64,000 nucleotides of DNA from assembly GCA_036703985.1 (NCBI GenBank), contig DATNQN010000001.1, positions 30,232 through 94,231 of the forward strand, given 5' to 3'. The number at the start of each line of letters is the position of its first letter. Positions within the stretch are counted from its first letter, which is position 1. Below, in pieces: positions 3,812-39,286 of the stretch. The position numbers and the translations under genes are program-made. The notes beneath the pieces are model-generated. The model searched no databases. It was given only the letters and a program-made list of their open reading frames with translations, and had not been told where the DNA came from. Origin of the DNA: Leptolyngbyaceae cyanobacterium (GTDB lineage: Bacteria > Cyanobacteriota > Cyanobacteriia > Cyanobacteriales > Aerosakkonemataceae).

Positions 3812-4125
3812 ATCAGTTCGGCTATATGCTGCGGTCACTGAGTTCCATGATTCCCTATTGTGCAGGATTTTGTGTCAGTTCGGGGAGTTAAGAAAGGAAA
3901 TGATTCGATCGCGCTGACAAAAATTCACTGTCATCCCGTAAAAATTGAGATTATTATTGCTACTAGAAAACCTTATTTTTGTTTGATTAATAATTGCAAA
4001 TTTGGTGTTTTCCTAGTAAGCAAATTCTTCTAATTCTCGATCGCTTTCTGTTTCTAAGCATTTGGCTAATTTTGGAGAAGGTAGTCGTCGATTGTTGGTG
4101 CTGGGAAGGGCAAAATATTTGGGGG

Positions 4126-4369
4126 AAATGCGATCGCATCCTTCCGCCGCCACGCACAATTCCCTTCCGAAGGTGCAGCACTCCCAGCCCAAATTCCCGG
4201 TGTAGGGTGGTCCGATCGATGGTCGTTTTGGCAAGCAGGCTATCCGGGAATCATGGTAGCGGACACCGCACCCTATCGATATCCTTACTATCACACTGCT
4301 CAGGATACGATCGATAAAATTGACTTCAAGCGACTGGCGCGGGTAGTAGCTGAATTGGAAAAAGTCATT
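4126..4369 (+). pseudogene. Duplicated 3' fragment of the M28 peptidase gene
   Basis: These 244 bases match the reverse complement of 38289-38532, inside the 3' part of the M28 peptidase gene, with only seven substitutions that I count (about 97% identity). The peptidase frame is still open (AIASFRRHAQFPSEGAALPA... to ARVVAELEKVI) but has no start, catalytic domain or native stop. The left boundary lies at a HIP1 site (GCGATCGC). The fragment seems to sit inside minus-strand coding remnants: a short frame starting MMSQNQDLIFEEPKSNHIQ (4465 down to about 4370) and one ending ESDRELEEFAY (4125 down to 4013). These may be two halves of a gene it interrupted, which I do not recognise. Confidence 0.8.
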
Positions 4370-26930: not shown

Positions 26931-26994
26931 TGTTGCACAAGAAGGGTGAGTTAAAGAAGGTGGCGTCATAGAGGGTACATTTGCGGTGAGGACA
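26931..26994. repeat. Repeat related to 24410-24535 (shorter copy), overlapping the hydrolase start
   Basis: GTTGCACAAG is followed almost directly by GGTGAGTTAAAGAAGGTGGC and the rest of the shared 49-base block. The final GCGGTGAGGACAA contains the GTG used here as the start of the hydrolase gene, so the repeat supplies the first codons of that gene. Confidence 0.55.
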
Positions 26995-27909
26995 AAACTC
27001 AGACGCTTGTTAGTCGGTGATTTTTCGGTTAAACGGCTGATCCGCTCTGTTATATTTATTTACGCTTGTTTGTGCATTTACGGTTATTTCTTTACCGATT
27101 GGATGATATTTAAGCCGCAACCATCTACCTATGAAGACAGCAAAGATATTCTCAAGCTGACAGCTACTGATGGGGTGAAAATTTCGGCAATTCACCTGCC
27201 TAATCCTAAAGGAAGTTTTACTATTTTGTACAGTCACGGTAACGCGGAAGATTTGGGAGATATGTTGCCAATACTGCAAAGATTGCGAGACTTGGGATTT
27301 TCTGTATTTGCCTACGATTATCGCGGATACGGTACGAGTCAGGGAACGCCTACAGAAAGTAATGTTTATAAAGATATCGATGCTGCTTACAATTATTTGA
27401 TAACTAAGTTAAAAGTTTCGCCTGAGAGGATTATAGTTTACGGGCGATCGGTTGGTGGCGGCCCATCGGTGGATTTGGCTTCTCGCAAAGCAGTGGGGGG
27501 TTTAATTTTGGAAAGTACGTTTGTTAGTGCGTTTCGGGTGGTTACTCGAATTGCGATCGTACCTTTTGATAAGTTTGCCAATATCGATAAAATTAAAAGG
27601 GTACGTTGTCCGGTTTTAGTAATACATGGAACTAGCGATCGCGTAATTCCTTTTTGGCACGGACAAGCGCTTTTTGCAGCAGCTAATCAACCAAAGCGCT
27701 TTTTGTGGATAGAAGGAGCAGACCACAATGAAGATTTTAGCTTGGTGGCAGGCGATCGCTATTCTAAAACTCTCCACGAGTTTGTTTCTTACCTTTCTTA
27801 CTTTTCCTATATTTCTTACTTTTCCTATATTTCTTACTTTTCCTATACTTCTTACTTTTCCTATACTTCTTACTTTTCCGACTTAAAAGATTACTATTTT
27901 TTTTGTTAA
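26986..27909 (+). CDS. Alpha/beta hydrolase with a tandem-repeat tail
   Basis: A 307-residue membrane-anchored serine hydrolase of the BEM46/ABHD13-like group. One N-terminal transmembrane helix (about 17-38) is followed by the hydrolase fold: oxyanion segment YSHGNAEDLG, nucleophile Ser in GRSVGGGPS (near 152), Asp in HGTSDRVIPF and His in GADHNEDF. The last 40 residues are a repeat of SYFSYI/SYFSYT encoded by an 18-bp tandem repeat, which replaces the natural C-terminus. The GTG start lies within a repeat element; a TTG at 27007 is an alternative. Its substrate is unknown. Confidence 0.85.
   Translation: MRTKLRRLLVGDFSVKRLIRSVIFIYACLCIYGYFFTDWMIFKPQPSTYEDSKDILKLTATDGVKISAIHLPNPKGSFTILYSHGNAEDLGDMLPILQRLRDLGFSVFAYDYRGYGTSQGTPTESNVYKDIDAAYNYLITKLKVSPERIIVYGRSVGGGPSVDLASRKAVGGLILESTFVSAFRVVTRIAIVPFDKFANIDKIKRVRCPVLVIHGTSDRVIPFWHGQALFAAANQPKRFLWIEGADHNEDFSLVAGDRYSKTLHEFVSYLSYFSYISYFSYISYFSYTSYFSYTSYFSDLKDYYFFC
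27788..27880. repeat. 18-bp tandem repeat at the hydrolase 3' end
   Basis: Five units of TTCTTACTTTTCCTATAT with C/T variants. The repeat is in frame with the hydrolase and adds an aromatic, Ser-rich tail of about 30 residues. Its length (18 bp) keeps the frame whatever the unit number. Confidence 0.75.
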
Positions 27910-28639
27910 TGTCTTTACCGTAACCACTTTTTTAGTTATTATTAGTTTCAGCATTTTATAACTGTGTTTTTCTCATACCAAGTGCTCTCAACTTGATAAG
28001 AGACCGCGCTTTGTATTTACCTATGGCAACCGAAAGATAGCGATAGGTAGATGTAAAATTATTTTGTATAGCCTGAAATGCTCATAGTTCCAGAGTTTAA
28101 TCAAGTAAATTTAATAGGTGGAATTAACTAATTAGGAATAAAAATCGTGACGAACCAAAAATCGTTAAATGAAGGGTCGGGAAATACGGTTACAGATAAA
28201 ATGAGTAAGGCGAATAACGTTACTATTAACGGTGTAACTTGGCTGTTTTCGCCACTAATATTGCCAAATGGTTTGCAGGCGATCGCCCGAGCAAATTCCA
28301 CGCATACTCGAATAACTTTGGTTTGAGCCAATCTGTCTTACCTCTACCCTGACATTGCTAAACCGGAGCTAGCTAATACTCATTTAGCCCAAATCAATAG
28401 GTAGGGAGACCCTACACATTTAGATTCATATACTTGGCAAATAATTATCAGGTGGTGAATGCGAGTGGATTCGCTCATCAAATTTGCTTGTTCAATTACC
28501 TTGGTAAGTCGTGCTGAGCAATTGATATTGGGACAGCTAGATGAGGCTATCAGCTATCAAATTAATTGAACAAAAAAGATAGTGCGACCGCATCAACTAA
28601 CAAACTAAAACCTTTCATTCTTTTACAAAGGAGTAAATT
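27910..28639. other. 730-bp leader of the LamG/LTD cluster
   Basis: This gap holds the likely promoter of the six-gene cluster and one short frame (28147-28326, entered separately). Otherwise I see no gene. A good ribosome site (CAAAGGAGT) precedes the first gene of the cluster. Confidence 0.4.
28147..28326 (+). CDS. Possible small protein (59 residues)
   Basis: A GTG-started frame encodes MTNQKSLNEGSGNTVTDKMS and 39 further residues ending TRITLV. The composition (Asn/Thr-rich, then a hydrophobic stretch) is plausible for a small protein, but there is no ribosome site I trust and no family I know. It could be chance or a remnant. Confidence 0.22.
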   Translation: MTNQKSLNEGSGNTVTDKMSKANNVTINGVTWLFSPLILPNGLQAIARANSTHTRITLV

Positions 28640-30712
28640 ATGGCTGACCAACAATGCGTATTATCGTTTGATGGATACGATGATTATGTCAATTTGGGCA
28701 AAAAGCCTGAATTTAAAATTGACAAAAACCTCACCATAGAAGCTTGGATTTATGTGTCGTCTCACAAACCTTGGGCTGGTATTATTTCTAATATTTTCGA
28801 TACTGGCACTACAAACAGTGGCTACGGTCTACTCCTCGATTATTCTGCTGCTGCCGTCTGTTTTGGCGTAGTAGTTATTTCTACTGAAATTCACTATACC
28901 CGTACCGCACCTAACACCATTAACTTTTATCAGTGGCATCATATTGCGGGGACTTATGATGGGAAGGAAGCAAAACTGTATGTTGATGGTGTAGAAAAAG
29001 GAACAGCAGCGATTCCCGGAGCCAACATTAATTACAATCCAGAAAATGACCTGTTGCTTGGCAGGTTCAAAGATGATGATGAATCATACTTCTTTCCAGG
29101 AAAAATAGCTGAAGTCCGGCTGTGGAATGTGGTTCGTTCTCCAGAAGAAATTAAAGCCGCAATGAATCATCGTCTCACAGGTAATGAGCCTGGACTGGTT
29201 GGTTACTGGCCTTTAAATGAATGCTCTGGAAATACTATTACTGACAGAACTGGCAAAGGGAATAACGGCACCATTATCAGCACAACTTGGCAGCAACAAG
29301 AATTACCCATCCAACCTGCACCTGCACCAGAAGAGAAGAAGCCAGAACAAGCGTCCAAGTTTGTCAAAGTTGGGACAAAAGGTGGCGCGATCGCAGGCAA
29401 AGATTTTGACTTCCAACCAAAAGATACGGCATCCCGACTGAAAAAGATCGGAATGATGGCAGCTTGGGCGATCGGTACTTTTGAAGTTGAATACGAGAAT
29501 ACTACCTCTAGCCCTACCGAAACCTATCGTTTTGGCCCAGTTGGAAGCGGCGGTGGTCAAAAGGTAGAAGTCTCTATAGAACCAGGAGATTATCTCACTA
29601 AATTAACAGGAACTTGGGGACGGCAAGCACCCGGATATCCCAAGGAAGAAATCATTACCCTTCAGTTTGAAACTCATAAAGGTATTAAATCTTCCGTATT
29701 TGGTGGCGGAAGTGGACAATCAGAAACGGAACCCTTTATTTTAGAAGCCCCTGAAGGGCATGAAATTATTGGTTTCTTCGGCACTCATGGTGGCCCGCAA
29801 GACCTGATCGTTCGCTTGGGAATTTATTGCCAACCCGTTCAGCAACCCGCCACACCGCAACCGACAACAACTGAAGAGGGCGATCCTGAAGAGGTAGTTG
29901 AGAAGTTTGTAGAAGAGGAAAAGACGGGAACGGCAATTGGAGAAATTGCGATCGCAGACATCTCCTACAAAGGTAAAGTCAAGCGCACTCAATCTGATGA
30001 ATATGTTGAGATTGTCAACAAAGGTACAGCAACCGTCGATCTATCCGGTTGGAAAATTTCCTCTGGTTTGAGTAAGAGACAAGCCTTTACTTTCCCCTCC
30101 GGAACCAAGTTAGAAGCAGGCAAAAGTTTCCGAGTTTATACTAACGAAGTTCACCCAGAAACAGGCGGTTTTAGTTTTGGTAGTGGATCGGGTATTTGGA
30201 GCGATAAAGGCGACGAAGCCAAACTATTTGATGCCCAAGGCAATCAAGTTGCAACTTTAGCCTATGGTGCGAGCAGTATTCCTGGCATCAAAGCAGAATT
30301 AGGTGTACCTCAACTAACAGTAAAAGTCAGCCCATCAGCAATTAATAAACAGAGCGCAATGGGAAGTAAGGTCACTTTCGTTGATGCCCTGAAACTAGCA
30401 ATTCAAAGTTTCTTAGAAGATGATACCGAGATTGAAAGCCCATTGGCTCAAATGCTCAACGATCCAGGTGCTTATGGTTTACCACAGGGAGCAGATAAAG
30501 CAGCAGCAACAAAAGTGTTGCGTTCTTATCTGAATCAATCCACCTCTACTCTGACATTGCAAACAGCCAAGAGCCAGTATCCACCAGAAAATGGTGAAAA
30601 AGTTGATAATAACTGGATCTTTTTGTTGGAACTTCAGGAAATGAGCGGTCTGTATTGGGTGATTATCGATCGTTCGGGTACAAAAGCACCCTACAACTAC
30701 GGCGTGAGCTAA
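28640..30712 (+). CDS. LamG-jacalin-LTD protein (cluster gene A)
   Basis: A 690-residue multidomain protein. Residues 1-205 are a LamG/concanavalin-like lectin domain (MADQQCVLSFDGYDDYVNLG, WHHIAGTYDGKEAKLYVDGV, VRLWNVVRS, GLVGYWPLNE). About 240-405 resemble a jacalin-type lectin (ITLQFETHKG, then HEIIGFFGTHGG). About 433-545 are a lamin-tail domain (DEYVEIVN, DLSGWKI, FTFPSGT, RVYTNEVHPETGGFSFGSG). About 550-690 are the C-terminal domain shared with genes B, C and E, ending VIIDRSGTKAPYNYG. There is no signal peptide or membrane helix. Such domains bind sugars or proteins, so an adhesive or scaffold role is inferred. It is the first of six genes on one strand. Confidence 0.85.
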   Translation: MADQQCVLSFDGYDDYVNLGKKPEFKIDKNLTIEAWIYVSSHKPWAGIISNIFDTGTTNSGYGLLLDYSAAAVCFGVVVISTEIHYTRTAPNTINFYQWHHIAGTYDGKEAKLYVDGVEKGTAAIPGANINYNPENDLLLGRFKDDDESYFFPGKIAEVRLWNVVRSPEEIKAAMNHRLTGNEPGLVGYWPLNECSGNTITDRTGKGNNGTIISTTWQQQELPIQPAPAPEEKKPEQASKFVKVGTKGGAIAGKDFDFQPKDTASRLKKIGMMAAWAIGTFEVEYENTTSSPTETYRFGPVGSGGGQKVEVSIEPGDYLTKLTGTWGRQAPGYPKEEIITLQFETHKGIKSSVFGGGSGQSETEPFILEAPEGHEIIGFFGTHGGPQDLIVRLGIYCQPVQQPATPQPTTTEEGDPEEVVEKFVEEEKTGTAIGEIAIADISYKGKVKRTQSDEYVEIVNKGTATVDLSGWKISSGLSKRQAFTFPSGTKLEAGKSFRVYTNEVHPETGGFSFGSGSGIWSDKGDEAKLFDAQGNQVATLAYGASSIPGIKAELGVPQLTVKVSPSAINKQSAMGSKVTFVDALKLAIQSFLEDDTEIESPLAQMLNDPGAYGLPQGADKAAATKVLRSYLNQSTSTLTLQTAKSQYPPENGEKVDNNWIFLLELQEMSGLYWVIIDRSGTKAPYNYGVS

Positions 30713-30774
30713 TACCAATTTCCTGCCAATTCATCCAGACTTTATCTTGTAACAATTACTAACACAAGGTTGAG

Positions 30775-30804
30775 GCGATCGCATTTGATGATGGATGCGA
30801 TCGC
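30775..30804. terminator. HIP1-pair hairpin after cluster gene A
   Basis: GCGATCGCAT (30775-30784) and ATGCGATCGC (30795-30804) form a perfect 10-base stem between genes A and B. There is no T tract, so it could be an attenuating or mRNA-protecting structure. Confidence 0.5.
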
Positions 30805-30891
30805 TCTCATCTCCCCCCTTTCCTAGAAGCTCATTAGACTTCTCAAAAAAATCAACAGCTTTGTTATTTACCTCAATTAGGCGCTAATCAA

Positions 30892-32322
30892 ATGGACAAG
30901 AAATTCGGTAAAATATTTGTTGTCAATTCTGGTTCAACTTTCAGTAATACTGGATTTGAAAAATCTCCAGATACCGCAACTTTTGTACAAAATCTAGCGA
31001 ACTGGTTTACGGGCGGTCGTCCGAGCAAGTTTTATTTCTACAGCGAAGAGGATGATTCATCTTATTCAACGTTGATAGAAGCGATCGCTCAAGCAGGTCA
31101 TACCTGGAATACAGAATATAATGAACTCGAAAATGTCGATGTCATTTTTACATCTCTGTCTATTGATTTTCCTGAAGATCTGTTGATGAATGCGGTAAAG
31201 AGCGGAATCAGCATTTGCATAATGCCTGATTGCGATACCCCTCAGAGTGAAAAAGATAACGAAGGAGGAGGGATTGGCTGGAACTGGTCTCTTTTACCTT
31301 TTGGTTTACAGTACAACAATCGTTATAACGGGATTTCTGGCAATCAACCCATTAATAGCAACCATCCGATTTTTGCAGGAATTAAATCTCTGTATCAAGT
31401 CAATGGCACTTCGATTATGGATTTCCAACCTGAAGAATCAGCTAATCAAATTTTGGTTTCTCACGATGGAGAAGGGTTGTATGCAATCTTCGATTTGGCA
31501 AAGGCTTCAACACGGGTAAGAATTTCCCGAATTTTTTCGGATGGAACTGTTAAAGCTACCGAAGCTGATGAATATATCGCTATTACCAATGATGGGTTAG
31601 TGGAAATAGATATTTCGGACTGGAAAATTCACGCCGTTAGTCGTAACCAAGACTTTACGTTTCCCCCAGGCACAAAACTAGGTAAAGGAGTCAAGTTCAA
31701 AGTTTATACAAACGAAGTTCATCCAGAGTCAGGCGGTTTTTCTTTCGGTAGCAAACGCTCTGTTTGGAATAACAAAAGTGATGAGGCACAACTGTATGAT
31801 GCTCAAGGAAATTTGGTGTCTAGCTATGCTTATACCGAACACAGTCAAAAATTAGCTAACTTAATGGCAAATTTAGACGTGTCCGTCTACCGCGAGGATG
31901 AAGAAGCTGGCATTCTAGAAGCTGATGCCGCCGCAATTAAAGCACAAAAAGCTTTAGACAATAAGATCGGTTTTGAGGAAGCCGTGGCACTTGCCTACGA
32001 GTGCTTTGCTTATTACAACGAAGAAGATGGCGTTGGCACTGCTTACGAAACAATTGGCGCTCGTGCTGATGCTGCGGGCGTGCCATACCCCTATTTTATT
32101 GATGGCGAGATCTTCCCTTCGTCTTGGCACTACTTGCAAAAACCCAATACTACAATTACTCTGTGTACGTCAGAAACCCCCGCGCTGCCAACTAAAGGGG
32201 AAGGCATAGAAGCTAACTGGATATTGATGTTAAAAGTTCCCGAACTCAACAGCGTACATTGGGCAATTATCGATCGCACGGGGGAAAAGGAACCTTACAA
32301 CTACGGGACTCAATTGTCCTGA
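30892..32322 (+). CDS. Amidotransferase-like-LTD protein (cluster gene B)
   Basis: A 476-residue protein. The first 205 residues have the look of a class I glutamine-amidotransferase/ThuA-like Rossmann domain (KIFVVNSGSTFSNTGF, NVDVIFTSLSIDFPEDLLM, SNHPIFAGIKSLYQVNGTS). I see no catalytic Cys-His pair, so it may be a binding module. Residues 208-313 are a lamin-tail domain (DEYIAITN, DISDWKI, VYTNEVHPESGGFSFGS), and 320-476 are a diverged version of the shared C-terminal domain with NWILMLKVPELNSVHWAIID and PYNYG. It replaces the LamG domain of its neighbours with another head. No signal peptide. Confidence 0.78.
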   Translation: MDKKFGKIFVVNSGSTFSNTGFEKSPDTATFVQNLANWFTGGRPSKFYFYSEEDDSSYSTLIEAIAQAGHTWNTEYNELENVDVIFTSLSIDFPEDLLMNAVKSGISICIMPDCDTPQSEKDNEGGGIGWNWSLLPFGLQYNNRYNGISGNQPINSNHPIFAGIKSLYQVNGTSIMDFQPEESANQILVSHDGEGLYAIFDLAKASTRVRISRIFSDGTVKATEADEYIAITNDGLVEIDISDWKIHAVSRNQDFTFPPGTKLGKGVKFKVYTNEVHPESGGFSFGSKRSVWNNKSDEAQLYDAQGNLVSSYAYTEHSQKLANLMANLDVSVYREDEEAGILEADAAAIKAQKALDNKIGFEEAVALAYECFAYYNEEDGVGTAYETIGARADAAGVPYPYFIDGEIFPSSWHYLQKPNTTITLCTSETPALPTKGEGIEANWILMLKVPELNSVHWAIIDRTGEKEPYNYGTQLS

Positions 32323-32345
32323 GCAATTTTTGTTGCAACAGATGA

Positions 32346-32394
32346 ATGCGGCGACCGCTCTACAAAAACTTAACAGAAAAGAGAGGGCGGTCGC
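32346..32394. terminator. Hairpin with GCGACCGC arms after cluster gene B
   Basis: GGCGACCGCTCT and AGAGGGCGGTCGC can pair with one slipped base. It is in the same position as the HIP1 hairpins after the other genes of the cluster but uses a GCGACCGC core. Confidence 0.4.
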
Positions 32395-32433
32395 ATACAC
32401 TAGAAACTTTTACTTTTTCAAAATGAGGAAATT

Positions 32434-34035
32434 ATGGCTGACCAACAATGCGTGCTGTCATTTGATGGACAAGATGATTCGGTCAATTTAGGCAGAAAAC
32501 CCGAATATAAAGTTGCCAGAACCATCACTCTAGAAGCTTGGATTTGTGCATCTGCTCAAAAACAATGGGCTGGGATTATCACGAATATTTACGACACTGG
32601 TGGGGCGGAAAGTGGATATGGTCTACTTTTGGATGGCGGTAGCGGCTTCTACTTTGGCTTAAAACTGCCATCATCGGGAATTAACTATCCCTATACTACT
32701 GAAGCCAACACAATTAAACTCAATCAGTGGCATCACATTGCGGGGACTTATGACGGACAACAGATGAAGTTGTATGTCGATGGTGTGGAAAAAATCAAAA
32801 AAGAGATCGCCGCTAACAGCATTGATTACAGCATCGAAAATGACTTACTGCTGGGGATGTACAAAGATAACGATGAATTTCACGCATTTCCAGGGAAAAT
32901 AACCGAAGTTCGTCTGTGGAATGTCGCTCGTTCGGCAGAAGAAATCAAAGCCACAATGAATCAGCGTCTGCAAGGCAATGAAGCCGGACTGGTAGGCTAT
33001 TGGCCTTTGAATGAGTGTTCTGGCGAGCAAGTTACTGACCAAACAGGTAAAGGTAACAACGGCACGATTAATGGCGCGACTTGGGTACGGGAAGAATTAC
33101 CCATTCAACCTGCAACAACATCAAAACCAGAAGAGAAGCAGCCAGAAACAACCGTTACTCCGCAAGTAGAAATTACCCATATTCTCTACAAAGGTGAAGT
33201 CAAGAGAACTCAATCCGACGAGTACGTAGAGATTACCAATCAGGAAGATAAACCTGTCGATATATCAGGCTGGCAAATTGCTTCTGGGGTAGGACGCAAT
33301 AAATTTTTCACGTTTCCTGCTGGAACAACACTAACCGCAGGTCAAAAAGTTCGAGTTTATACTAATGAAGTGCATCCAGAGACAGGTGGTTTTAGTTGCG
33401 GTAGCAAGCTGTCACTTTGGAAAGACACTGGTGATGAGGCAAAACTTTTAGATGCTAAAGGAAATTTGGTATCTGGTTTAGCCTATGACAGCAAAGGTAA
33501 TTTCACGAAAATTACTAACGAGCAGACATCAGAAGCTACTTTCGAGAGCGTTAAAGCAGAACTGGGCGTTCCTAATCTCAAGCATAATATCAACGATGCT
33601 GATGTCAAAGCACAAACGACACCTCAGACAAAAGTAAGTTGCGTTGATGCTTTTAGAAAGGCTCTCAAGAGCTTTATTGAAGATGGCACTGACGACTTAA
33701 GTGCATTTGCAGAGGTTCGGGAATTCCCCTCTATGTACGACCTACCCGATGGTAATAATGATGCGAAAGTGATTAGTGAGAAGGTACGGGAAACGCTTAA
33801 TAATCACTGCCACATCAAATTATTAACGCTCAAGTCTCAAGACCCAGAAGATAACGAATATTCTTTCTGGAAAGATCAGATTGAAGGGTATGCAGATCGT
33901 TACAATTGCCCTTCTAATCTTAATGATTCCTGGATTTTCGTGTTGGATTCCAACAAATTTAATAATTACAACTGTGCTGTGGTTGATAAAGCCGGAGCGA
34001 AACCAACTGTTAACTGGGGCTTTTTATACGGTTAA
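32434..34035 (+). CDS. LamG-LTD protein (cluster gene C)
   Basis: A 533-residue paralogue of gene A without the jacalin part. LamG covers about 1-225, and its opening is almost identical to gene A (MADQQCVLSFDGQDDSVNLG). LTD covers about 244-350 (TQSDEYVEITNQEDKPVDIS, then VYTNEVHPETGGFSCGSK). The shared C-terminal domain covers about 365-533, including VSCVDAFRKALKSFIEDG and DSWIFVLDSNKFNNYNCAVVD, but with an extra loop near 470-500. A strong ribosome site (GAGGAAAT) precedes the ATG. No export signal. Confidence 0.82.
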   Translation: MADQQCVLSFDGQDDSVNLGRKPEYKVARTITLEAWICASAQKQWAGIITNIYDTGGAESGYGLLLDGGSGFYFGLKLPSSGINYPYTTEANTIKLNQWHHIAGTYDGQQMKLYVDGVEKIKKEIAANSIDYSIENDLLLGMYKDNDEFHAFPGKITEVRLWNVARSAEEIKATMNQRLQGNEAGLVGYWPLNECSGEQVTDQTGKGNNGTINGATWVREELPIQPATTSKPEEKQPETTVTPQVEITHILYKGEVKRTQSDEYVEITNQEDKPVDISGWQIASGVGRNKFFTFPAGTTLTAGQKVRVYTNEVHPETGGFSCGSKLSLWKDTGDEAKLLDAKGNLVSGLAYDSKGNFTKITNEQTSEATFESVKAELGVPNLKHNINDADVKAQTTPQTKVSCVDAFRKALKSFIEDGTDDLSAFAEVREFPSMYDLPDGNNDAKVISEKVRETLNNHCHIKLLTLKSQDPEDNEYSFWKDQIEGYADRYNCPSNLNDSWIFVLDSNKFNNYNCAVVDKAGAKPTVNWGFLYG

Positions 34036-34095
34036 ATTCCATTTTTGGTAATCAAATCGACGGGAAGGGAAAGCGTCAGTAGAACATCGCTCAAA

Positions 34096-34138
34096 TTAGG
34101 CAAATCGAATTAATAAATTATTAATTCGATTTGCCTAA
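34096..34138. terminator. Perfect 21-bp palindrome between cluster genes C and D
   Basis: Two 21-base arms, starting TTAGGCAAATCG, are exact complements around a single central A (34117). It lies 61 bases after gene C and 40 bases before gene D. Followed by AAC rather than T, it could be a stabilising hairpin, a protein-binding dyad or a cruciform. Confidence 0.6.
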
Positions 34139-34177
34139 AACAAGCAAACTAATCACCTCAAAAAAGGATTTGCAGTC

Positions 34178-35962
34178 ATGGTAGATAAGAGAAAAGTTCT
34201 GGCATTCGATGGGGTTCAAAATTATGTGAATTTGGGAAATAAACCTGAATTCAAAATTCAAGGTCAATTAACTTTAGAAGCTTGGGTTTATGTACAAGAA
34301 TTTCAAGATATCTATTATGCTGGGATTTTTAGTAAGGCGCATTACCGCGAAGAGGGTGCATATAGTCTATATATTCACCAAGCCAATAAGGGTCTAGAAT
34401 TTAGGATAGACTCGTACACTGTAGGTTCTTATTTTAATCTCCTCGTGAATCAGTGGTATCACGTTGCCGCCACCTACGATGGTGAAATGATGAGATTATA
34501 CGTTGATGGCACTGAACTTGACGTAAAGACTAAATACGTTCCCCGACAAGGACTAATTTCCTATCCTGAAGCTGATTTGCTATTGGGGTCATACTATTCA
34601 GACAAGCATCGTTATTTGCATGGAAAAATGTCCGAAGCTCGACTTTGGAAGATTGCTCGTTCCCAAGAAGAAATCAGAAAGGATATGCAGCGACGTTTAA
34701 CGGGGACAGAACCAGGATTAGTAGGCTATTGGCCTTTAGATGAAGGGACGGGTGATATTATTCATGACAAGAGCGCAACTGGAAATCATGGCTCAATTGT
34801 TGGCCCAATTTCTTGGGAAGAAGCTGATTTAAGTCAACCTAAAAATGGATCGGGAGTCCTTTCATGCGACGGTACCGAGGTGCTATTGAGGGACAGACCT
34901 CAATTCAGAATCCAAGGTCAAATGACGTTAGAAACTTGGGTTTATGTGGAGAAAATAAACACTTCGTATGATGGAATTTTTTGTATTTTATACTATGATG
35001 ATGGTTGGCAAGGATATGGCTTGTATTTCTCTTATTCAGGTAACGAATTAACGTTCAGGATTGCAGGATGTACTGTAAGTTGTGGTATTGCCCTCAAACA
35101 GTGGTTTCATATTGCTGCTGCCTTTGATGGTCAGGTGATGAGGCTTTATATCAATGGAGAAGAAAAAGCCAAAGGCAATGGTCCTACCTCAATTCCCTAC
35201 AGCAATACACCGCTATCAGGATCGGGTCCTATGCCTTTGAGATTAGCGGATTATCACGATCGCAGAGAATTTCATTGTTTTACGGGAAAAATGACGGAAG
35301 CCCGACTGTGGAATGTGGTTCGCTCCCCAGAAGAAATCAAAGCAAATATGCAGCGACGTTTAACGGGGAAAGAAGCAGGATTAGTCGGCTGTTGGCCTTT
35401 GAATGAAGGGGTTGGTAGTAAAGCATTTGATAAGACTGCTAATGGATTTCACGGCACTATCATTCGATATAGAGAGAGTACTAATAATTGGGTTGAGTCG
35501 GATTTAGAACTGTCTAGTTTAGAACCTCCAGAAGAAAGCAGTGCTAATAAAACACCAGAAGGCAATTCTAATCAAACAGAAACAACCCCCACACCGCAAG
35601 TAGAAATTACCCATATTTTCTACAAAGGTGTGGTCAAGAAAACTCAATCAGACGAATACGTTGAGATTACCAATCAAGAAAGTAAACCAGCCGATATATC
35701 CGGTTGGCAAATTGCTTCTGGGATAGGACGCAATAAATTCTTTACTTTTCCTGCCGGCACCACACTAGCTGCGGGTCAAAAGATTCGGGTTTATACCAAT
35801 GAAGTACATCCAGAGACAGGTGGTTTTAGTTGCGGTAGCAAGCTGTCACTTTGGAAAGATTCAGGAGATGAGGCAAGACTGTTGGATGCTAAAGGAAATT
35901 TGGTATCGGGTTTAGCTTATGACAGCAAAGGTAATTTCACAAAAACGCACGCTACCAAATAA
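34178..35962 (+). CDS. Double-LamG-LTD protein (cluster gene D), lacking the C-terminal domain
   Basis: A 594-residue protein with two LamG domains in tandem (about 1-215 and 226-440), each with its own GLVGYWPL/GLVGCWPL ending, followed by a Ser/Thr/Asn linker and an LTD (about 475-590). The LTD is nearly identical to that of gene C, also at DNA level, which points to recent duplication or gene conversion. The protein stops at FTKTHATK, just where gene C continues into the shared C-terminal domain, so gene D is truncated or naturally short. No signal peptide. Confidence 0.82.
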   Translation: MVDKRKVLAFDGVQNYVNLGNKPEFKIQGQLTLEAWVYVQEFQDIYYAGIFSKAHYREEGAYSLYIHQANKGLEFRIDSYTVGSYFNLLVNQWYHVAATYDGEMMRLYVDGTELDVKTKYVPRQGLISYPEADLLLGSYYSDKHRYLHGKMSEARLWKIARSQEEIRKDMQRRLTGTEPGLVGYWPLDEGTGDIIHDKSATGNHGSIVGPISWEEADLSQPKNGSGVLSCDGTEVLLRDRPQFRIQGQMTLETWVYVEKINTSYDGIFCILYYDDGWQGYGLYFSYSGNELTFRIAGCTVSCGIALKQWFHIAAAFDGQVMRLYINGEEKAKGNGPTSIPYSNTPLSGSGPMPLRLADYHDRREFHCFTGKMTEARLWNVVRSPEEIKANMQRRLTGKEAGLVGCWPLNEGVGSKAFDKTANGFHGTIIRYRESTNNWVESDLELSSLEPPEESSANKTPEGNSNQTETTPTPQVEITHIFYKGVVKKTQSDEYVEITNQESKPADISGWQIASGIGRNKFFTFPAGTTLAAGQKIRVYTNEVHPETGGFSCGSKLSLWKDSGDEARLLDAKGNLVSGLAYDSKGNFTKTHATK

Positions 35963-35978
35963 GTATTAGTCAGGTTTA

Positions 35979-36019
35979 GCGATCGCATCCATCCAGTCCC
36001 CAGAATTTAATGCGATCGC
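35979..36019. terminator. HIP1-pair hairpin after cluster gene D
   Basis: GCGATCGCAT (35979-35988) and ATGCGATCGC (36010-36019) pair with a 21-base loop and are followed by ATTTTCTC. It sits between genes D and E. Confidence 0.5.
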
Positions 36020-36059
36020 ATTTTCTCGCCACCGAACACACAAAGGATGTAATAGCAAA

Positions 36060-36938
36060 ATGTACCAAGTAGAAATCACCGATATTTGCTATAAAGGCAC
36101 TGTCAAAAGAACTCAAACTGATGAATACGTTGAAGTTACCAATTTAGACAAAGAATCAGCCGATATATCTGGTTGGATGCTCTGTTCATCCGAGGGCCAA
36201 TTTAATGTTTTTACTTTCCCTGACGGAACTCTATTAGCTCCTAGTCAAAGCGTTAGGGTTTATACCAACGAGGTACATCCCGAATCGGGTGGCTTTAGTG
36301 CCAATAGTCGCATACCCATTTGGAAAGACTTAGGGGATGAAGCATTGCTGTACGATGCTAATCGTTTCATGAGGTCTTCTTTAGCCTATGACAGCAAGGG
36401 TAATTTCACCAGAACTCTCAGTGCAAATATGTTCGCTACTGATTTTGAACGTGCAAAAGCTAAATTTGACGTTCCTAATCTCAAAGTTGAAATCAGTCTT
36501 GCCGAGATTGAGGCGCGAGTGACCCCTGAGACAACCAGAAATTGTGTAGATGCGCTATTGTTTGCGCTCCAGAGCTTTATTCTGGATCAATATCAGCCTC
36601 ATTCCATAGGTAACGAAGTGAAGGAAAACCCGGAATGTTTTGGCTTAGCTGAAGGTGATGAAGTTACCACTATAGTAGCCGAACAAAAGGTGCGAGAAAG
36701 ACTAAATTCTGATGCCGTTATCTCATTGTGGCAGGGAGAGATACCCGCCGATCCCGAAGCTGCCTCTAATCCCTTGGACGATGCGGTTAAGGTTTTCTTT
36801 GAGTTTAACGAGTTAGAACCGAGTGATTTTTGGGTATTTCGACTGGACGGATTTAAGAATTATTATTTCGCTGCTTCTGACAAAAAAGGACATCATAATA
36901 CTCAAACCTGGGGCGTTAGTCCAGATGATTTAATCTGA
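36060..36938 (+). CDS. LTD protein with shared C-terminal domain (cluster gene E)
   Basis: A 292-residue protein that begins directly with the lamin-tail domain (residues 3-115: VEITDICYKGTVKRTQTDEY, DISGWMLCSS, RVYTNEVHPESGGFSANS) and ends with the shared C-terminal domain (about 130-292, NCVDALLFALQSFILDQ, DFWVFRLDGFKNYYFAASDK, TQTWGVS). It corresponds to the part that gene D seems to be missing plus its own LTD, so D and E may be products of one ancestral gene split by recombination. There is no signal peptide. Confidence 0.8.
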   Translation: MYQVEITDICYKGTVKRTQTDEYVEVTNLDKESADISGWMLCSSEGQFNVFTFPDGTLLAPSQSVRVYTNEVHPESGGFSANSRIPIWKDLGDEALLYDANRFMRSSLAYDSKGNFTRTLSANMFATDFERAKAKFDVPNLKVEISLAEIEARVTPETTRNCVDALLFALQSFILDQYQPHSIGNEVKENPECFGLAEGDEVTTIVAEQKVRERLNSDAVISLWQGEIPADPEAASNPLDDAVKVFFEFNELEPSDFWVFRLDGFKNYYFAASDKKGHHNTQTWGVSPDDLI

Positions 36939-36955
36939 AAAATTCCTTGGCGTTG

Positions 36956-36992
36956 GCGATCGCACTTGAGCAGGTACGTGCGATCGCTTTTT
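36956..36992 (+). terminator. HIP1-pair intrinsic terminator after cluster gene E
   Basis: GCGATCGCAC (36956-36965) and GTGCGATCGC (36978-36987) form a perfect stem followed directly by TTTTT. This is the only hairpin of the cluster with a good T tract, so gene F may have its own promoter or depend on readthrough. Confidence 0.65.
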
Positions 36993-37019
36993 CCCAATCA
37001 TCACTAAAACACAAAAGAT

Positions 37020-38111
37020 ATGAGCCAAAAACAACAAATTATTCCCACTGTCCGCCCTTGTGGAATCAGCCGCACCACCGCAGATCCGGTAGATTTGGTT
37101 GTCGTTATCGATACTAGCCCCTCGATGAAAGATGAAGCGAGTGACCTGAGCAATGCCGCCGCTGCTGCGATTTCTGCTGCTGCTGCTAGTTGTCCTTGCG
37201 ATTTGAGAGTAATATGGTTTGGGGTCGAAGGTACTTGGAAAGGGACAAATTTTAATCGGACTCTACGGGATTATCTCTTGAAAGAGTGCAAAGTTGCCGA
37301 TGCAGAGTTGCGATCGAGACGGCGAGGAGAATTAGCTGAAGCTGGAGCGCAGGAAGATGCGGCGCGGACTGTAGAAGATATCTCAAATCATTTTGATTGG
37401 CGCGCGGGTGCCGCGCGATCGATTTTATATTTGGGAGATGAAGCACTCGAAGGTGGAGGAGAGAAAACGGAAGAAGAAGATATTATCGGCGCAAACAAGG
37501 CGATCGCAACCGCGAAACAGGCGGGAGTAAAAGTTCATACTTATTTTGGTACGACCAAGAGCAAGTTTAAAGAAGGGATGGAGCAAGAATACGCCCGATT
37601 AGCGAGAGAAACAGGCGGAATAGCTTTCACGGATCGGGATTCTATTGGCGGCTTTACAGAGGTTTTGCAAAAGGTGATTTGCAATAGCCGTCCTGTAGGG
37701 ATTCAGTGGGAGATTCCTCAGCCGCTACCCTGTTTTGAATTAAGGAGCGATCGCCAACCATTGGCAACCCAGGGAGCGGAAAAAATTGCAGTTGTAGCCT
37801 CTAATTGTTACTCGAATGTCACGTTTAAAAATTTAACAGCAGTTTTATCGGTCGTTTCAAAATCTGATGGAACTTCGATTCCTAATTTAGTCGATGGAAG
37901 ACCCGCTGTGGTTATTAAACCATCTCCCGAAATCGTTTTTGGTGATTTATTTCCTCTAGGTTCCGATCGGTCTGAATCTTCTGTCGTGAAAGAAATTATC
38001 ATCGAAACCAATAGTGCAAATCGTGGAGACTATCAGCTAAAACTCGAACACTCCTTTGCAGCAGAATTTCATTTTCAAAGTAGCGATGAATTTGCGTTAG
38101 GGACTTCTTAA
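37020..38111 (+). CDS. VWA-domain protein (cluster gene F)
   Basis: A 363-residue protein with a von Willebrand factor A domain at about 22-225. The metal-site motif DxSxS is present as DTSPS at residues 31-35, so a divalent metal can probably bind. A beta-rich domain (about 230-363) follows that I do not recognise. There is no signal peptide. VWA domains mediate metal-dependent protein contacts and often chaperone assembly of multiprotein systems. It is the last gene of the LamG/LTD cluster on the same strand, 81 bp after gene E. Confidence 0.82.
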   Translation: MSQKQQIIPTVRPCGISRTTADPVDLVVVIDTSPSMKDEASDLSNAAAAAISAAAASCPCDLRVIWFGVEGTWKGTNFNRTLRDYLLKECKVADAELRSRRRGELAEAGAQEDAARTVEDISNHFDWRAGAARSILYLGDEALEGGGEKTEEEDIIGANKAIATAKQAGVKVHTYFGTTKSKFKEGMEQEYARLARETGGIAFTDRDSIGGFTEVLQKVICNSRPVGIQWEIPQPLPCFELRSDRQPLATQGAEKIAVVASNCYSNVTFKNLTAVLSVVSKSDGTSIPNLVDGRPAVVIKPSPEIVFGDLFPLGSDRSESSVVKEIIIETNSANRGDYQLKLEHSFAAEFHFQSSDEFALGTS

Positions 38112-38192: not shown

Positions 38193-38224
38193 AGCGATCG
38201 CATTCGATGATTAATGCGATCGCT
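38193..38224. terminator. HIP1-pair hairpin between the VWA and M28 peptidase genes
   Basis: AGCGATCGCAT and ATGCGATCGCT pair with a 10-base loop in the gap between the convergent cluster gene F and the M28 peptidase gene, so it can serve both. Confidence 0.55.
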
Positions 38225-38257
38225 ATCGTCAAACTTTACAAGATTTTGCACAATTGA

Positions 38258-39286
38258 TTAATCAATCTCAACTATTGCCAAATCGGAAATGACTTTTTCT
38301 AATCCAGCTACTACCCGCGCCAGTCGCTTGAAGTCAATTTTATCGATCGTATCCTGAGCAGTGTGATAGTAAGGATATCGATAGGGTGCGGTGTCCGTTA
38401 CCATGATTCCCGGATAACCTGCTTGCCAAAACGACCATTGATCGGACCAACCGACACCGGGAATTTGGGCTGGGAGTGCTGCACCTTCGGAAGGGAATTG
38501 TGCGTGGCGGCGGAAGGATGCGATCGCATTTCTCACTAAATTACCAGATTTGATATTACCAATAAAAGCAATAAAATTTCCACTAGATGGATAAACAAAA
38601 TTTAGAGGAAAGGGATATTTCTGCGTTCCCGGTTCATCCGAATAGTAACCCATCGTTTCTAAACTCAGCATCGCAACGATATTTTCCCCAGTTTCGCGGC
38701 ATTTTCGAGCATAAACTAAGCTTCCCATATCGGCAGTTTGAAAAAAAGGCGGTTCCTCATTTACAAATTCCACAAAACGCAGAGTTCTGGCGGTTTTTTT
38801 ATGGACAAAATTTCTCGCCAATGCCAATACTGCCGCTGCACCAGTAGCGTTATCATTAGCACCGGGGCTATCGAGGTTAGAATCATAGTGAGCGCCTATA
38901 ATTATTATTTCATTAGCGCGACTTTCACCCGGCATTTCTGCTATTAAATTAGCGTACTCTCGTTTGGCAATTTGATATTTTTGATGGGTTATTTTCCATC
39001 CCGCACTAGTCAAAGAAGATGACAAATAATTAACCACTTTTAACAGATTTTTGTAATCGGAAAAATTATGCTCTCCGATTTCTTCCGATAACTTTTGGAT
39101 ATCTTGCTTTAAAGCTGCTTGTAGCTGAATTTCTCCGGGTGTTAGAGGCAGTAATTCTTCTCGGTAACTACTCAGAGGCATTCGGATACAGACGAGCCAT
39201 ATAAAAACAAGTATGAAGCTGAAGATGATGGTAAAAATCGTCAGCCTGCCTAATGCTTTGCGAGTAACTAGTTTTATTATTGGCAT
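38258..39286 (-). CDS. M28-family zinc peptidase
   Basis: A 342-residue peptidase of the aminopeptidase Y/glutaminyl cyclase group. An N-terminal hydrophobic helix (about 12-35) is likely a signal anchor placing the enzyme outside the cytoplasmic membrane. Metal-ligand motifs are GAHYDSNLDSPGANDNATG (about 132-150), NEEPPFF, and the C-terminal HTAQDT. Three zinc-binding regions are in place, so it should be active. A 244-bp segment of its 3' part is duplicated at 4126-4369. It is convergent with the LamG/LTD cluster and not obviously part of it. Confidence 0.88.
   Translation of the reverse strand: MPIIKLVTRKALGRLTIFTIIFSFILVFIWLVCIRMPLSSYREELLPLTPGEIQLQAALKQDIQKLSEEIGEHNFSDYKNLLKVVNYLSSSLTSAGWKITHQKYQIAKREYANLIAEMPGESRANEIIIIGAHYDSNLDSPGANDNATGAAAVLALARNFVHKKTARTLRFVEFVNEEPPFFQTADMGSLVYARKCRETGENIVAMLSLETMGYYSDEPGTQKYPFPLNFVYPSSGNFIAFIGNIKSGNLVRNAIASFRRHAQFPSEGAALPAQIPGVGWSDQWSFWQAGYPGIMVTDTAPYRYPYYHTAQDTIDKIDFKRLARVVAGLEKVISDLAIVEID

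Follow-up and report, generated by a model that had tools for sequence, protein, structure and literature searches.

How did six genes that reuse a small set of protein modules come to lie inside the end of another gene, and what might their products do together? The question is raised by a 64,000-nucleotide stretch of the genome of a Leptolyngbyaceae cyanobacterium (contig DATNQN010000001.1, positions 30,232 to 94,231; hereafter the window), in which six same-strand genes, A–F, encode five proteins with a lamin-tail domain (LTD) and one VWA protein. The genes form a block inserted in the 3′ end of an alpha/beta-hydrolase gene, and four of the products end in a common C-terminal domain (CTD), so that a constant tail stands behind changing heads; in other genomes, related heads and VWA proteins are joined to lipases and proteases. 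We tentatively read the block as a defence kit of cell-internal lectins.

An insertion in the 3′ end of a hydrolase gene

Genes A–F, together with the remnant of a seventh gene, make up a 10.4-kb insertion (Table 1). In three genomes of the same family, from two other genera (G003, G004 and G009), the hydrolase gene and an M28 peptidase gene lie tail to tail and the block is absent; the matched stretches of the two genes are separated by 4 bp in G003 and in G004 and overlap by 2 bp in G009. In G007, a peptidase fragment of 36 residues and the hydrolase overlap by 2 bp; no side-by-side placement of the two genes was found in the other five relatives in the family. Homology with G003 ends at position 27786 and resumes at 38216, the junction ends varying by tens of bases among relatives and aligners. 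The break in homology and the empty site in the relatives together indicate that about 10.4 kb was gained. The right copy of a direct repeat bordering the insertion reads on as the old C-terminus of the hydrolase, to a stop codon at 38290–38292. No transposase or integrase was seen in the list of open reading frames inside the block.

Modules of the block

The preliminary description had proposed six genes built from LamG, jacalin-like, LTD and VWA modules, and profile matches and structure models bear this out. The LTD (PF00932) is matched above the cut-off in A–E and has the lamin immunoglobulin-type fold. LamG/concanavalin A-like domains (PF13385) in A, C and D score 96–146 bits against a cut-off of 27.6, and the jacalin-like domain of A (PF01419) scores 55.3 bits against 22. 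By profile, then, the heads of A, C and D are predicted to bind sugars, through LamG and in A through the jacalin-like domain as well, and in A and C these lectin domains are joined to a non-lectin part, the LTD–CTD. The jacalin region of A contains GGPQD, found by eye; we take GxxxD near the C-terminus to be the sugar-binding motif of jacalin-like lectins, and sugar binding by this head is a prediction. The CTD is present in A, B, C and E and is lacking in D. The AlphaFold2 model of F has the predicted VWA alpha/beta fold, with the DxSxS metal site kept as DTSPS in agreement with the earlier assignment, and adds a beta-sandwich. By hydropathy, the N-termini of A–E are not hydrophobic.

None of the structure matches listed for the model of B spans the CTD, but since the lamin domain fills these lists, this does not argue for a new fold. 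Matches to the PADLOC profile C3a212 (SNc plus LTD) cover only profile positions 199–278 of 279, that is, the LTD part. All four LamG matches of the genome, and all five of its LTD matches above the cut-off, lie inside the block; a sixth LTD elsewhere is below the cut-off. Repeats of LTD and LamG within the block are still recognisable at the DNA level.

The spacer between C and D holds a perfect inverted repeat (Table 1). Three other spacers contain pairs of GCGATCGC, noted by eye, which we take to be HIP1; the pair before F is followed by a run of T.

Table 1. Coordinates in the window of the inserted block and its borders
Feature	Coordinates	Strand	Description	Length (aa)
alpha/beta-hydrolase gene	26986..27909	+	3′ end displaced by insertion; matches to nearest relatives end at residues 269–275	
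35-bp imperfect direct repeat, left copy	27750..27784	+	26/35 identical; borders insertion	
18-bp tandem repeat, 4.8 copies	27794..27879	+	just inside left junction; new repetitive tail of hydrolase open reading frame	
Seventh-gene remnant	28165..28340	+	LamG end (28165–28242), then piece of B-type head (28236–28340); frames broken	
Gene A	28640..30712	+	LamG–jacalin–LTD–CTD	690
Gene B	30892..32322	+	Rossmann/glutaminase-like head (AlphaFold2 model)–LTD–CTD	476
Gene C	32434..34035	+	LamG–LTD–CTD	533
Inverted repeat	34096..34138		perfect, 21 bp, 1-base loop; between C and D	
Gene D	34178..35962	+	LamG–LamG–LTD, without CTD	594
Gene E	36060..36938	+	LTD–CTD, without head	292
Gene F	37020..38111	+	VWA with DTSPS metal-site motif (~20–222), beta-sandwich (~237–350)	363
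35-bp repeat, right copy	38214..38248	+	start of displaced hydrolase 3′ end	
M28 peptidase gene (PF04389)	38258..39286	-	right neighbour; touches hydrolase gene in relatives	

A conserved tail behind changing heads

The shared C-terminal domain noticed in the preliminary description is real and conserved. A hidden Markov model built from the four CTDs of the window matched 26 of 388 genomes of the order (25 besides the window's own), in 17 of the 149 genera, six of them with a fragment only (G037, G130, G167, G209, G306 and G329); a separate search in the family of G063 found it in 2 of 61 genomes. Twenty regions around CTD matches were fetched, five of the fragment-only genomes being omitted, and 19 contain a CTD open reading frame (the exception, L117, is a fragment). 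The LTD precedes the CTD in 15 of these 19, counting a split reading frame in L102. Three others are proteins of 151–163 amino acids that consist of the CTD alone (L108, L111 and L113), and in L116 the CTD accompanies a match to the DUF6923 propeller, without an LTD. The heads in front of the tail vary in kind: the head of B occurs in ten (in a neighbouring frame in L102), LamG in five, a jacalin-like domain in L099, a tectonin domain (PF19193; 99 bits against a cut-off of 30) in L110 and, below the cut-off, a DUF569 beta-trefoil match in L104. Two LamG–LTD genes adjoin one another in L109. By sequence comparison, then, the LTD–CTD is a conserved cassette, usually present once per genome, behind changing heads.

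The tail is also better conserved than the heads. With A as the reference, the tails of L099, P0243 and P0244 are 84–92% identical and the LamG and jacalin heads 48–66%; GcvP of the window's genome is 79% identical to that of G291, the genome of L099. At four-fold silent sites, identity is 55–56% in the tail (103 sites), 43% in GcvP and 38–43% in the heads. Because the silent sites of the tail are only moderately closer than those of GcvP, the tail is kept mainly by selection, and we do not claim a recent transfer of A's tail between these two genomes. No His or Cys is among the residues that 80% or more of 45 aligned CTDs share, so that no active site stands out; the charged residues in this set correspond to D594, E653 and R678 of A.

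The gene in L102 (5809–9467) that combines the head of B with the LTD–CTD is split into two frames, of 984 and 201 amino acids.

Do the tail and the VWA genes travel together?

The LTD–CTD and VWA occur together in 3 of the 388 genomes, against 2.1 expected if they were independent: the window's own, G072, where a VWA fragment lies 166 kb from the CTD, and G360, where the two are on different contigs. The preliminary description had proposed a search of other genomes for LTD genes beside a VWA gene; of the 388, the window's genome is the only one to have them side by side. No VWA match lies inside the 20 fetched CTD regions, and parts of A–E are matched at a single VWA locus, L061, by LamG.

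A different picture emerges from the homolog tables, which give for each protein the size of its longest contig, so that exactly equal sizes can serve as a sign of linkage. Five CTD proteins equal listed F-family proteins in this size (7,171, 9,831, 81,798, 354,929 and 2,491 bp). Counted by entry, 6 of 120 listed F-family proteins match one of 35 CTD sizes. With a 20% jitter applied to the sizes, 0.22 matches are expected, and none of 20,000 such trials gave more than 4; for sizes above 5 kb, there are five matches against 0.06 expected, with no trial exceeding 2. The sets at 7,171 bp (P0102/P0152), 9,831 bp (P0094/P0261) and 81,798 bp (P0091/P0107/P0264, Microcoleus) contain the same two families, an N-domain–VWA protein of 393–396 amino acids and a protein of 480–491 amino acids with the head of B before LTD–CTD; they may stem from close relatives and are not taken as three independent events. 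The set at 354,929 bp (P0002/P0252) pairs a protein 80% identical to F with a LamG–LTD–CTD protein like C. The pair at 2,491 bp (P0015/P0232) is in the match count and was dropped as linkage, such a contig being unable to hold both genes whole. Further equal sizes (P0012/P0161, P0027/P0157, P0082/P0182 and, on a Rivularia chromosome, P0047/P0336) were not counted, as their LTD proteins have no CTD match. Strong but indirect evidence, namely identical longest-contig size, thus suggests that four other contig sets carry both the LTD–CTD and VWA.

Relatives of F and their neighbours

The family of F is represented in 31 of the 388 genomes, by a fragment only in seven and mostly by the VWA part alone in the rest. 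Among 21 F-type VWA loci examined, 15 have a lipase, a PatA/PatG-type or other subtilase, or a nuclease/phosphatase-family gene within about 5 kb: a PatA/PatG-type subtilase in L012, L053, L056, L057, L058 and L062, a Tle1-like lipase in L044, L046, L047, L048 and L049, a patatin in L059 and L060, a member of the endonuclease/phosphatase family in L045, and another subtilase together with a LamG protein in L061. In the remaining six (L043, L050, L051, L052, L054 and L055), no lipase or subtilase is present among the 13 neighbours scanned, a subset, which comprise asparaginase, DUF29, histidine kinase, periplasmic-binding-like, AAA, methyltransferase, phycobilisome linker, oxidoreductase, pentapeptide repeat, transposase, LpxD-like and bestrophin proteins and one without a match. 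The association extends to a fusion, P0068 being a VWA protein joined to a patatin. In the window's own genome, a second VWA locus (L012, 4427–15037) has a double-VWA gene with two PatA/PatG-type subtilases in its vicinity, at distances of 0.7 and 6.8 kb; these are the genome's two PatG_C subtilases and share the contig with the double-VWA gene. In L062 (4163–10291), a homolog of F (64% identical) lies 1.1 kb from a full PatG-type gene with ThcOx, subtilase, PatG_D and PatG_C domains.

Some other neighbours deserve mention. Beside the VWA and Tle1-like lipase genes of L048 (4190–8620) is a globin–nitric oxide synthase–reductase fusion gene, and the same region has a weak H-type-lectin match, below the cut-off. 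A small thioredoxin-type open reading frame occurs near F-type VWA genes in L044, L045, L046, L047 and L053, confirmed by Pfam in L044 and L053 and noted by eye in the others.

Lectin heads joined to enzymes

Enzyme domains are also found attached to relatives of the heads. Of the 120 listed, out of 154 relatives of the parts of A, about ten have an enzyme domain as judged by precomputed Pfam matches; they include LamG–patatin fusions (P0276 and P0297), a tectonin–jacalin–Tle1-like fusion (P0295), jacalin or LamG with a Dyp peroxidase (P0325 and P0344) and a class-3 lipase with an LTD (P0336). In two LamG relatives, P0292 and P0320, the C-terminus is a cyanobactin domain of the PatC/TenC/TruC type, 34 residues long and matched above the cut-off. 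Nine of the 21 VWA-bearing genomes contain 11 Tle1-like domains, of which five are found no more than 8 kb from an F-type VWA gene, three share an open frame with LamG (in two genomes of one genus) and three do neither. By chance, in genomes of 4–9 Mb, fewer than one copy in 100 would fall within 10 kb of a given gene, a figure to be read with the sampling in mind, the genomes having been chosen for their VWA gene and without a random-gene control.

Comparison with described systems

Several known systems resemble the block in part. Fungal fruiting bodies contain cytoplasmic defence lectins without a signal sequence (PMC6272156), and the fungal chimerolectin CCTX2 combines four beta-trefoil domains with a C-terminal alpha+beta domain that has no known function, both terminal domains being needed for nematotoxicity (PMC13324453). 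The proteins described here are like CGL2, tectonin 2, MOA and CCTX2 in being soluble without a secretion signal and in using multiple lectin domains of varied folds, tectonin among them, and like the fungal chimerolectins in having a non-lectin C-terminal domain. They differ in being bacterial, in placing one LTD–CTD tail on many heads, in forming a tandem cluster with a VWA gene and in having no known toxicity. Bacterial LTD proteins include extracellular nucleases and lipases with a lamin tail, whereas here the LTD stands between heads and CTD, with no nuclease and no signal peptide seen.

The vWA–MoxR ternary conflict systems (Kaur et al. 2020, eLife 52696) likewise tie a VWA protein to varied effector domains, cyanobacteria included. 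Unlike these systems, the block has neither a MoxR AAA+ protein nor VMAP, and its variable parts are lectins; it consists of A–F and the remnant only, flanked by the alpha/beta-hydrolase and the M28 peptidase. A genome-wide survey of cyanobacterial lectins (PMC10655256) indicates that jacalin, OAA-type and two-family lectins are known from this phylum; the main text of the survey contains none of the words lamin, concanavalin and chimer, and neither LTD–CTD tails nor a VWA link were seen there. No description of LTD lectin chimeras with VWA in cyanobacteria was found in the literature searched (titles and the beginnings of abstracts, subscription literature being mostly outside it). The individual modules are known, but that literature yielded neither the LTD–CTD cassette nor the exchange of heads, the VWA link or the insertion.

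Possible functions

We propose, with somewhat less than even confidence, that A–F are an acquired defence kit, in which lectins kept inside the cell bind the glycans of grazers or competitors upon damage or ingestion. The model is drawn by analogy from the fungal cytoplasmic lectins and the chimerolectin CCTX2. The acquired block encodes five proteins with an LTD or LTD–CTD tail, three of them with predicted sugar-binding heads, and a predicted VWA-fold protein. The heads would bind sugars, as their sequences suggest; the tail would either oligomerise the proteins or carry the active part; and F would be the partner of A–E, perhaps by holding an acidic side chain at its metal site. A–E would stay in the cytosol until lysis or ingestion of the cell brought them to their presumed targets, the glycans of a grazer or competitor. 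If this is true, the block is a bacterial counterpart of the cytosolic lectin armoury of mushrooms, assembled by exchanging the heads in front of an unchanging tail, and the conserved LTD–CTD offers a handle for finding such genes in any genome. A defence role could likewise account for the repeated occurrence of F-type VWA genes next to lipases and proteases. Since the site is empty in relatives, the insertion is a clean gain, removable and testable.

A number of observations weigh against this proposal. Most CTD genes are single and isolated, and the window's genome is alone among the 388 in having LTD–CTD beside VWA. No known enzyme domain is present in A–F, lipase and protease being absent from the profile matches, so that any harm would have to be done by the CTD or through the cross-linking of glycans on the target. 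Promoter-like sites number 20 against 20.4 in shuffled sequences and terminator-like sites 11 against 9.2, showing no excess; given also the inverted repeats in the spacers, a single transcript for A–F can only be presumed. A Tle1-like gene is missing from 12 of the 21 VWA-bearing genomes, and the window's own genome has none. A cyanobactin link, which a defence role leaves unexplained, is suggested by the PatC/TenC/TruC-tailed LamG relatives and by the PatA/PatG proteases that neighbour VWA genes, and the missing signal peptides are compatible with export by another route. It is rather improbable, on our estimate, that the block belongs to a new polymorphic conflict system, in which exchangeable lectin heads on the LTD–CTD would form glycan-aimed complexes with a VWA partner, lipase or protease warheads (Tle1-like, patatin or PatA/PatG-type subtilase) would be swapped among genes and among genomes, and the spread would be by cassettes like this 10.4-kb block.

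Other explanations account for parts of the evidence. The proteins could instead be surface or sheath lectins, in keeping with the preliminary description, which had suggested a scaffold, a lectin surface or a contact system, with the CTD serving as a C-terminal export and anchor domain and the heads binding sheath polysaccharide or neighbouring cells to give a lectin coat or adhesion. A common CTD on unlike proteins that lack an N-terminal signal does resemble a sorting domain, and the VWA folds and beta-sandwiches that turn up in the structure matches of F are frequent in adhesion proteins. Nevertheless, no export gene is seen among the open reading frames of the block and no secretion gene was seen, by eye and without a scan, to recur beside the CTD genes of 19 loci; no known sorting domain is matched above the cut-off in A–F (Por_Secre_tail reaches only E 0.17, in B), and the CTD also stands alone as a small protein. 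We regard this explanation as rather improbable. A role in attack, with A–F aiming lipases or proteases encoded elsewhere, such as the PatA/PatG-type subtilases of the second VWA locus, gains from the presence of PatA/PatG-type (6), Tle1-like (5) or patatin (2) genes near F-type VWA in 13 of 21 loci, from the lectin–lipase fusions of other cyanobacteria and from the position of the two PatG_C subtilases of the same genome. It is nonetheless unlikely, for the block has no enzyme gene, the genome lacks a Tle1-like gene and profile comparison gives no kinship between the CTD and PatG_C. That kinship had been considered after inspection of C-termini and in view of the PatA/PatG-type subtilases close to the second VWA locus, and was dropped when there was no match to PF18065 in Pfam and an hhalign probability of 1.2%.

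The same neighbourhoods might suggest that LamG and VWA proteins are accessories of a cyanobactin-type peptide pathway, with a part in maturing, storing or releasing the peptides that PatA/PatG proteases cut. The likeness lies in the PatC/TenC/TruC ends of P0292 and P0320 and in the PatA/PatG-type proteases beside F-type VWA at 6 of 21 loci, including the full PatG with its oxidase domain in L062. Yet the block encodes no PatA/PatG protease, A–F match no PatC/TenC/TruC or PatA/PatG model of NCBIfam at E values up to 1, and no such link is apparent for the VWA genes that neighbour Tle1-like lipases or patatins; we consider this very unlikely. Finally, a gained CTD lectin gene may simply have multiplied by unequal crossing-over, with F as a passenger and no joint function. 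The LTD and LamG repeats visible in the DNA, the decayed seventh gene, the absence of the CTD from D and the want of co-location with F in other sampled genomes would all fit such an array, but its heads differ in kind and not just in sequence, four copies of the CTD have open frames, selection acts on this domain, and LTD–CTD and VWA proteins elsewhere share longest-contig sizes. The preliminary description would have taken the cluster for a chance tandem array if the genes proved not to be conserved together elsewhere or the C-terminal domain not to be shared. On this point the answer is mixed, and its interpretation is partly supported: conservation of the CTD and the five size matches favour it, while the 388 genomes provide no second case of co-location. 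We do not regard the cluster as a chance array, and we keep an array without joint function as a quite unlikely alternative.

Carriage and other features

Viral carriage was considered and set aside, as no relative of F or of the CTD was confirmed in viral contigs (40 and 88 candidate stretches). The same holds for plasmids, where F matched only two Proteus records of about 4 Mb and E matched four Vibrio or Halobaculum records over 31–37% of its length, corresponding to its LTD. The two Proteus mirabilis records, listed as plasmids and containing an F-like VWA protein of 41% identity (L119, 9869–10828), are probably mislabelled chromosomes. A link with contractile injection was rejected too, the genome's two tail-sheath-type genes (PF04984) being on other contigs (C67 and C97; L162 and L163); these genes may belong to contractile injection systems or prophages.

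Within the window, positions 4125–4369 hold a 245-bp inverted copy, 97% identical, of the 3′ part of the M28 peptidase gene (38288–38532), about 34 kb away. This copy is a recent partial duplication.

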